Below, in pieces: positions 14,519-15,709 of a stretch of DNA of 64,000 nucleotides; position 1 is the stretch's first letter; every line of letters starts with the position of its first letter. Made by a program: the position numbers and the translations under genes. The stretch comes from Halothiobacillus neapolitanus c2 (GTDB lineage Bacteria; Pseudomonadota; Gammaproteobacteria; Halothiobacillales; Halothiobacillaceae). The stretch covers positions 1 through 64,000 of the forward strand of contig NC_013422.1 in assembly GCF_000024765.1 (NCBI RefSeq), read 5' to 3'. Below the pieces are notes generated by a model. The model ran no database searches. It was not told where the DNA came from and was given only the letters and a program-made list of their open reading frames with translations.

Positions 14519-14553
14519 AAATCCCCCTCATTCCCCCTTTTACAAAGGGGGAG
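14519..14553. repeat. Family-B hairpin broken by the IS110 element
   Basis: This opens AAATCCCCCTCATTCCCCC and has hairpin CCCCCTTTTACAAAGGGGG. The unit is interrupted after GGGGGAG; its continuation (GGCGAAATGCC) is found at 15709-15719 on the far side of the insertion element. It also forms the leader directly upstream of DUF559 copy 1. Confidence 0.88.
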
Positions 14554-14568
14554 CAACCGTGTTAAAAA

Positions 14569-15519
14569 TCAAGCAATTTGAGCCACCCATGGCTGCATAT
14601 TTTTCAACATGGCATTCATGATGGTGAGCAGTTTACGCATACAGGCAACGATGACGACTTTGGTTGCCTTTCCCTTGTTTTTGAGCCGCTCTGCGAACGC
14701 CTTGATATCCGGATTAAAGCGCATGGCACTGAGTGCTGCCATGTACAACACTGCTCGAACCTCGGCGCGTCCACCCCAGATTGAGCGTTTACCACGATGC
14801 TTACCACTGCCATTAGCCAAGGGCGCAACCTCGACCAAGGCGGCAATCTCCCGTCGGTTCAATGCCCCAAGCTCCGGGCATTTGGACAGCATGGTCAGGC
14901 TGGTGACTGCGCCAATGCCAGGAATACCCTTGAGCACGTCATCCTTGGCGCGCCAGACATCCGACGCACGCAGTTGCGTGTTGAGGTCATTGTCGACCGT
15001 AGTGATCTGCTTCTCCAGCCAGGCGATGTGGGTCTTCAGGCTTTTTTGCAGCGCCTTGCTCTCGGCGGTATTGAGCCGGAGCAATTCCTGGACACGCATG
15101 GCAATGAGCTGGCGTCGCCGGTTCAGCATATCCTCAAGGGCGCGAGCATCCGCGTCCTTGAGCGGTCTGGCCGCAGGGCGGATGGCTTGTGCAAAGGCGG
15201 CCAGCATGGCCGCATCCACCCGGTCAGTCTTGGCCAGCCGCCCCGTGGCTTTGGCAAAATCCCGCGCCTGGCGCGGGTTGATGATGGCCACGGTCAAGCC
15301 CGTGGCCGAAAGCTCACAGGCGAGACGCACTTCCAGCCCGCCGGTAGCCTCCAGCACAATCAGGGTCGAACTCGCCGCCTTCAAGGCTTCGATAATTTTC
15401 TCGATCCCCTTCTCGTCATACGTCTCATGCAGCGATACACCGGAAGGTGCAATATGCACATCCAGTGTGTCTTTGGACACATCAATGCCCACGAAGGCTT
15501 CAGCTAATTTGTCGTTCAT
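14569..15519 (-). CDS. IS110-family transposase (DEDD recombinase)
   Basis: A 316-residue RNA-guided recombinase. The N-terminal RuvC-like domain has the DEDD residues D13 ([11 protein letters not shown]), E57 (LEATGG), D99 and D102 (KTDRVDA); a coiled region follows (about 125-190), then the IS116/IS110/IS902 domain (about 195-290) with [10 protein letters not shown] and the probable catalytic serine S239 in [11 protein letters not shown]. All key residues are present and the frame is intact, so the element may be active. Known members exchange DNA at a CT-type core using a bridge RNA, and the CT core is seen at both ends here. Start ATG at 15519; AAGGATGG precedes it. Confidence 0.95.
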
Positions 15520-15524
15520 TCATA

Positions 15525-15700
15525 CCCATCCTTGCAAAAATGCGGGATCATTGTCCCAAGCAACCGTTCGGGTTAATCGTGAAAAATCGGCAGGACGCTC
15601 ATCGCTCCCCCACGGGCTTGATGTCCCAGAGGCACTTCGAACTGTCATGCCGAGCCAAATGAATCTTACATAAAATGTACGTTCCATCGGGCAAAATGAA
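15525..15700 (-). ncRNA. Predicted IS110 bridge RNA region
   Basis: The non-coding left end of the element fits the position of IS110 bridge RNAs. On the transposase strand a first loop region has GTGCCT (15635-15630) and GGGGGAG (15611-15605), suitable left and right target guides: together they describe a GCCTCCCCC box, which is what the occupied family-B hairpin contains. A second loop region has ACGGTTGCT (15567-15559), identical over 9 nt to the right end of the element plus core (14560-14552), as expected for a left donor guide, and GCAAG (15535-15531), which pairs with the core and first bases of the left end. Exact transcript ends cannot be read from sequence. Confidence 0.7.
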
Positions 15701-15709
15701 ACATACAAG

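Follow-up and report, generated by a model that had tools for sequence, protein, structure and literature searches.

An IS110-group insertion sequence with a left-end bridge RNA splits a C-run/G-run hairpin repeat in Halothiobacillus neapolitanus c2

The first 64,000 nucleotides of the Halothiobacillus neapolitanus c2 contig NC_013422.1 (assembly GCF_000024765.1, forward strand; this whole stretch is called the window below) carry an insertion sequence of the IS110 group at 14552–15709. The element lies on the minus strand and reads [CT]TGTATG...ACGGTTG[CT] from its left end (LE) to its right end (RE). Its gene, at 14569–15519 on the same strand, encodes a transposase of 316 amino acids. The non-coding ends are unequal, as is the layout in the IS110 group: with the core included, the left end is 190 bases long (15520–15709), the length already given by an earlier first-pass annotation made from the sequence, and the right end 17 bases (14552–14568). 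The IS1111 group was considered and rejected, since the right end has only these 17 bases and the RNA described below lies in the left end. When the 2,582,886-base single-contig genome was searched, one copy of the element was found.

The element splits a C-run/G-run hairpin repeat, and each half of the split repeat is kept in a paralogous uninterrupted copy. The two halves of the interrupted site are both given on the minus strand: TTTAGGCATTTCGC at 15710–15723 is the left half, and 14518–14553, which holds the right side of the target and the core, is the right half. The left flank of the element, GCTGCCTTTAGGCATTTCGCCT, runs on into CTCCCCC in the uninterrupted copy at 13963 (minus strand, 13925–13963), where GCTGCCTTTAGGCATTTCGC is followed by CTCCCCCTTTG. 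The right flank, CTCCCCCTTTGTAAAAGGGGGAATGAGGGGGATTTACAAGC, has GGCATTTCGC ahead of it in the uninterrupted copy at 26205 (plus strand, 26192–26225). The pre-insertion target was read from these comparisons as ATTTCGC-CT-CCCCCTTTGTAAAAGGGGG, with CT common to both sides, and is written as wild-type ATTTCGC-CT-CCCCCTTTG. Because CT alone is common to the LE junction (15708–15709) and the RE junction (14552–14553), the core is taken to be two bases, with no longer target duplication, as in other members of the IS110 group. Hence the first-pass annotation was right that the boundaries can be read from the split repeat and that CT, on the transposase strand, is the core at both junctions. It may be noted that the comparison copies are paralogous and do not represent the same locus in another strain. 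An orthologous empty site was sought in two sister genomes that keep the neighbouring array at 89% over 435 bases; the long alignments stop at about 14011, before the insertion point, and they therefore give no empty-site proof.

The transposase matched two IS110-family domains of Pfam, PF01548 (1.2e-21) and PF02371 (5e-16), and could be aligned to recombinases of solved structure, namely IS621 (8wt6, E 2.5e-33) and ISCro4 (9t56, E 7.1e-38). The catalytic residues of IS621 used for comparison were those named in passages of PMC11208158. In the alignment to IS621, the DEDD residues (D13, E57, D99 and D102) and the serine-glycine pair, with its serine at S238, are kept. The protein thus has a RuvC-like domain with DEDD residues and a C-terminal Transposase_20 domain with its serine, as transposases of the IS110 group do. 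A scan of our genome collection with the transposase gave 118 relatives, and 80 of these loci were kept for the comparisons that follow.

The donor guides of the left end were compared with the junction that would form if the two ends were rejoined in a circle. The left donor guide, ACGGTTGCT(TG) at 15557–15567 on the minus strand, consists of the right end, the core and the first bases of the left end. The first-pass annotation had described a 9-nucleotide exact copy of the right end plus core; ACGGTTGCT was indeed found at both 14552–14560 and 15559–15567, and the identity with the rejoined junction extends further, to 11 of 11 bases (ACGGTTGCTTG, 15557–15567). The right donor guide, CATTTTTGCAAG (15531–15542, minus strand), was placed by eye from the layout published for IS621, and its CAAG is complementary to CTTG of the left end. 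Both donor guides thus correspond to the circle junction, as expected of the IS110 group, the left one over 11 of 11 bases and the right one over a CAAG recognized by eye. With coordinates counted from motif positions on the minus strand, the right end has a -35-like TTGATT (14567–14572) and the left end a -10-like TATGTT (15700–15705), and the joined ends give TTGATT-17-TATGTT, a putative promoter with 17 bases between the boxes. TTGA-17-TAT was seen at the same position in 21 of 29 circle junctions, that of the window element included. When scored against the promoter consensus at the best place and spacing, and without a shuffled control, 28 of the 29 junctions reached at least 8 of 12.

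A bridge RNA with target and donor loops was located in the left end by a covariance model, R1, at 15523–15657 on the minus strand (122.2 bits, E 8.5e-31). R1 had been trained without the window element on 23 of the 24 relatives in the structure alignment (L037 was omitted), and with E values up to 1 admitted it found no second match in the window. Tried on eight other loci, R1 gave one match, in the distant relative L103, and it found nothing in the second IS110-type element of the H. neapolitanus genome. A search of 13000–17500 against Rfam returned seven weak matches, all of them under the gathering scores and all to unrelated families.

The signature of the donor loop was present upstream of the gene in 57 of 81 sequences (the 80 loci and the window element), and the other 24 were set aside. 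From the 57, 25 were chosen for the structure alignment. The resulting consensus consists of an outer stem with an inner stem-loop, followed by a second stem with its own inner stem-loop; both target-guide stretches lie in an open internal loop, and some donor-guide bases are drawn as paired. The target-binding loop (15587–15653, minus strand) has an outer stem formed by 15640–15653 with 15587–15599 and an inner stem-loop at 15613–15628, and these two helices are paired in 97.3% and 92.0% of cells across the 25 sequences. The inner stem of the donor loop (15544–15557, minus strand) is GGGA/TCCC, with a compensatory change to GGGC/GCCC in close relatives. Fifteen pairs were picked by hand from the consensus for counting, with seven donor-loop pairs that involve guide bases dropped and one pair added to the inner donor stem; 95.7% of their cells are paired. 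The covariation of the same pairs was 0.362, compared with 0.159 after shuffling and 0.059–0.103 with the partners slid. The leave-out model and this structural support together place a bridge RNA with two internal loops in the left end, as in the IS110 group. The left end also has a 5' stem-loop, GTATGTTTCATTTTGCCCGATGGAACGTAC (15677–15706, minus strand), in the minimum-energy fold, and its role may be that suggested by IS621.

The right target guide is GTGGGGGAG (15605–15613, minus strand). Its position was set by homology, as the bases ahead of the AGC (AGT in some rows) that closes the loop. All 7 positions of GGGGGAG fit the target CTCCCCC, and so the guide is complementary to the top strand to the right of the core at 5 of 5 non-core positions and over the core. 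The same rule was scored across the relatives. Of 57 rows, 56 were used, since L065 is too near a contig end, and they were deduplicated to 33 right and 41 left pairs. L081 and L097, whose gene ends were not given, have no right target in this test; loci with probably mis-called left ends (L060 and L070) or doubtful left guides (L028, L063, L066 and L073) were kept in the counts. For 28 distinct right guides, the mean fit to their own targets was 4.36 of 5 compared with 1.53 for swapped pairs, a level reached in 0 of 20,000 permutations that ignored relatedness. For all 33 right pairs the means were 4.15 and 1.60, with 17 of 33 perfect, and the signal ends after the fifth base beyond the core. 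On the target of the window element, none of the 32 other right guides reaches the 5 of 5 scored by its own guide. The guide-target match in the right half is well supported, because right guides across the relatives fit their own targets.

It is very probable that the element belongs to the IS110 group and carries a bridge RNA in its left end, and that the right target guide of this RNA reads the CTCCCCC foot of the hairpin while the left guide contributes little. From this anatomy and from the published systems we infer the following course. The element would be excised as a circle, in which the right and left ends are joined into the promoter TTGATT-17-TATGTT, and this could drive both the transposase and the bridge RNA. 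In the RNA, the donor loop would read the circle junction (ACGGTTG-CT-TGTATG) and the target loop the genomic site around the CT core, with GGGGGAG of the right target guide selecting the CTCCCCC foot of the C-run/G-run hairpin repeat. The DEDD/serine recombinase would then swap strands at the two CT cores. The left guide may add little here beyond the core and two or three bases kept by the repeat (Y-G-C). As such, this is an ordinary IS110-type element, a new example of a known RNA-guided mechanism and not a new mechanism. It is a clean single-copy example, and its relatives give an independent check of the target rule of bridge RNAs, with 28 distinct guides on the right and as many on the left.

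Several results weigh against this reading. The left target guide, GAAGTGCCT (15630–15638, minus strand), has the expected position and core, but it is a poor fit to its target ATTTCGCCT: GTGCCT agrees with the bottom strand left of the core at only 2 of 6 non-core positions, or 3 of 6 with a G-U wobble. Shifting the register by hand, with the core one or two bases further on, gave 2 of 6 each and was rejected as no better. On the left target of the window element, 37 of 40 other left guides score at least 2, and the window guide scores at least 2 on 24 of 40 other targets; with wobble allowed, 28 of the 40 other guides equal or beat the guide of the element itself. The two matches that it does have are exactly the two bases conserved by the repeat. 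The first-pass annotation had already flagged the left guide as the weaker one, and rightly so. Its further claim, that GTGCCT and GGGGGAG together describe the box of the repeat, can be kept in part: both segments are present where the relatives carry their left and right target guides, and GGGGGAG fits at 7 of 7, but the fit of GTGCCT does not exceed that of left guides from other elements.

Left guides as a class behave differently from the one in the window. For 28 distinct guides the mean fit to their own targets was 3.93 of 6 compared with 2.64, mainly through positions -3 and -4, and 0 of 20,000 permutations reached this level when relatedness was ignored. Among the 41 pairs, 3 fit at one position, 4 at two, 6 at three, 14 at four, 12 at five and 2 at six, so that 28 of 41 fit at four to six. 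When a single guide fits a single site poorly, it is the claim on that site that is weakened, not the homology. The left guide might have drifted after insertion, or the element might have landed with a weak left match. Guide-target matches are best judged half by half.

Folding the sequence alone is a second point against the reading. The single-sequence minimum-energy fold is unremarkable (z -1.08, with 30 of 200 shuffles at least as stable) and pairs part of the left target guide with the right target guide. The consensus of a close set of 11 sequences likewise pairs the two target guides in part; it also lacks an outer donor stem, and where the donor guides lie it shows small hairpins. Partial complementarity between the two guides is expected, because both share a core, and in our judgement the diverse 25-sequence alignment is the better witness for the open loop. 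The first-pass expectation that folding would place both guides in internal loops is thus borne out by the 25-sequence consensus, but not by the single-sequence and close-set folds, in which they are partly paired.

In Halothiobacillus sp. STB_50 (genome G009), a relative of the element (72–73%) has four right-end targets, which fit the right guide carried by the single intact copy at 5, 5, 3 and 3 of 5 positions (by eye; the other three copies are broken off). A genuine guide may therefore tolerate mismatches, and a match is no proof of programming. A search of the H. neapolitanus genome with the combined guides found no site within 2 mismatches of 16, and at 3 mismatches it found 20, as did the reversed control. 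With a 14-base form of the guides, at most 2 mismatches and 27 genomes of the family, 5 of 27 had more matches than the reversed control, the largest excess being 3. Finally, the element is present once, so that there is no repeated insertion into the repeat family and no further copy at an unrelated target; this one copy is also all that bears on a habit specific for palindromes of the repetitive extragenic palindrome (REP) kind.

A stronger proposal, and the one that survives best among the alternatives, is that of the first-pass annotation, which held that both target guides match the repeat and that the hairpins it called family B are RNA-programmed landing sites of this element. This is plausible, and we consider it somewhat less probable than its negation; as a general claim it is not supported, resting as it does on one insertion. 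The right guide fits the hairpin target at 5 of 5 positions plus the core, and the left guide matches both of the bases that the repeat conserves on the left side of the core, but its fit to its own site is at background level. Hairpins of the form CCCCCTTT-N-AAAGGGGG occur at 30 places in the genome and at none in the reversed control. The stricter GCCTCCCCC hairpin occurs at 6 places in this genome, all six intact and unoccupied, and at 32 across ten genomes from the genus, 5 of which carry it. Left of the core, among 34 repeat copies counted (30 of them distinct, with the right junction of the element included), C is found at -1 in 32 and G at -2 in 29, followed by C in 21 or T in 7. The repeat conserves little left of the core, and the outer part of the guide thus has little repeat sequence to match. 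The 12-base AGTGCCTCCCCC (AGTGC-CT-CCCCC) is absent from the genome of H. neapolitanus; across the ten genus genomes it has exactly two occurrences (controls 0), each located at a hairpin of this kind and both belonging to the sister genome G009, which is suggestive. Against this, two exact matches among 32 GCCTCCCCC hairpins do not exceed what chance would yield with three free bases (about 0.5 expected by estimate, two or more in about 1 of 11 cases), and the element itself is present only once. Among the relatives, too, some insertions lie at the foot of a C-run/G-run hairpin, with a stem at p <= 0.05, uncorrected and against simple shuffles, in 8 of 38 right flanks. Besides that of the window, these are the flanks of L030, L032 and L033, with transposases 68–73% identical, and of L034, L041, L056 and L101 (47–61%). 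A hairpin at the target as a rule for the clade was rejected on the same count, most flanks being without a stem.

A different account concerns the history of the left guide. The segment CGAAGUGCCU of this guide is complementary over 10 bases, with one G-U pair, to the top strand of the left flank of the element itself, AGGCATTTCG (15711–15720). Written the other way, the segment at 15630–15639, CGAAGTGCCT, is an inverted copy of AGGCATTTCG at 15711–15720 with one transition. The published rule has the left guide pairing with the bottom strand, and this run uses the other strand. The run is treated as a lead only, since it was noticed after several patterns had been inspected; it could be due to chance, or the flank could have been copied into the guide in inverted form. 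In the latter case a template switch after insertion would have replaced the left guide with an inverse copy of the left flank of the repeat, and the element would now be mis-programmed. A run of 10 is not reached in any of 1,640 swapped guide/flank pairs (the maximum is 8) or in any of the 40 other own pairs, and only 0.027% of 200,000 guides sampled from the column frequencies of the family reach it. However, the pattern was spotted post hoc among several, some of its bases (CG, CCT) belong to the common scaffold, and a count without wobble shortens the run to 5 on the own flank, compared with 9 on GGCACTTCG, the flank more often found in other copies of the repeat. We regard the overwriting as unlikely.

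Slightly less likely still is that the insertion was accidental and the right-guide match an effect of composition, with C-rich targets meeting G-rich guides. The relatives often use C-rich targets, and one other of the 33 right targets fits the window guide at 5 of 5. However, the own guide alone among 33 right guides reaches 5 of 5 on the window target, its position was fixed by homology and not picked, and the excess of own over swapped fits extends to targets without a C-rich sequence, among them TCGAT, TGAGG and CATTA. Lastly, both target guides could be read as complementary to one strand of the repeat (CGAAGUGCCU with AGGCATTTCG and GGGGGAG with CTCCCCC, covering 17 of 18 box bases in permuted order, one wobble included), which might indicate a same-strand reading in a three-way junction or an inverted self-copy and would depart from the published opposite-strand layout, but we hold this to be very improbable.

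Read as an IS110-type element with a bridge RNA, the insertion resembles several systems in print. Bridge RNAs (also called seekRNAs) in IS110 elements and the use of REP-like palindromes have been published, as passages of PMC11208160, PMC11187229, PMC1525189 and PMC8450116 (ISPpu9) describe; the first-pass annotation was correct in holding bridge RNAs in such elements to be established. IS621 of E. coli, as presented in parts of PMC11208160 and PMC11208158, is like the window element in its homologous recombinase (E 2.5e-33), its CT core, its long left end with a bridge RNA and the two internal loops of that RNA, target first and donor second. In the same parts its target also lies within a palindromic repeat, and its donor has a right side CTTGTAT, with a right donor guide that ends in CAAG. 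Unlike IS621 as described there, the window element uses a different target repeat and has a left target guide that fits its own site poorly. The seekRNA system of ISEc21 and ISMch6, in passages of PMC11187229, shares the IS110 type, an upstream non-coding RNA and a top-strand match 3' of the bottom-strand match; those passages also report a circle-junction promoter for ISEc21 and movement that persists with reduced target matches. In contrast to the window element, ISEc21 targets sites inside IS3-family transposase genes and not a hairpin repeat, according to the same passages. ISPpu9, ISPpu10 and ISPa11 are, as parts of PMC1525189 relate, IS110-family elements in extragenic palindromes, as is the window element, but they are multi-copy, with every copy in REPs (7 of 7, 7 of 7 and 6 of 6), whereas here there is one copy.

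The first-pass annotation further took the guide-target pair to be new, and this is doubtful. The legend of Extended Data Fig. 10c in PMC11208160 gives six elements with guides predicted for both target and donor, and ISHne5 is among them. The H. neapolitanus genome holds two kinds of IS110-type element, either of which could be ISHne5. By naming custom, the name ISHne5 presumably points to an element of Halothiobacillus neapolitanus. If ISHne5 is the window element, its guide-target pair is already in print. The second kind of IS110-type element is present in two copies (L124 and L123, at about 1017730–1019330 and 2381490–2383090) that are 99.7% identical over 1,600 bases. L124 differs from L123 by three single-base insertions, and its transposase frame is broken.

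A further comparison within the genus is the relative in Halothiobacillus sp. STB_50 (L026, on contig C74 of G009). Its transposase is 72% identical, and it has the same donor sequence and the same bridge-RNA layout, but it differs in its target guides (left target guide TCTACCCCT, complement of the right target guide CTCTCCCAC), in its targets and in having several right ends in that genome. Three other contigs of G009, C63, C90 and C95 (L110, L109 and L108), end inside the right end of the relative (73%, residues 283–315), and the right flanks seen beside the same end are CT-ACCCCAT, CT-CTCCCCC and CT-CTCCCAC. Several flanks beside the same end indicate that the relative is probably multi-copy in this sister species.

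The surroundings of the element are themselves repetitive. The region 13740–16170 is an array of units of about 170 bases that alternate two kinds of C-run/G-run hairpin, and two sister genomes keep part of the array next to the same gene. The segment 13911–14551 is duplicated in inverse orientation at 26207–26879 (84% over 641 query bases), with its hairpins and an open reading frame at 14129–14500 (123 amino acids, DUF559-like by eye). A second dispersed repeat, which translates as SRESGNPExSxRWIPAYAGMTGFS, flanks the region on both sides, near 12886–13089 and 17374–17637.
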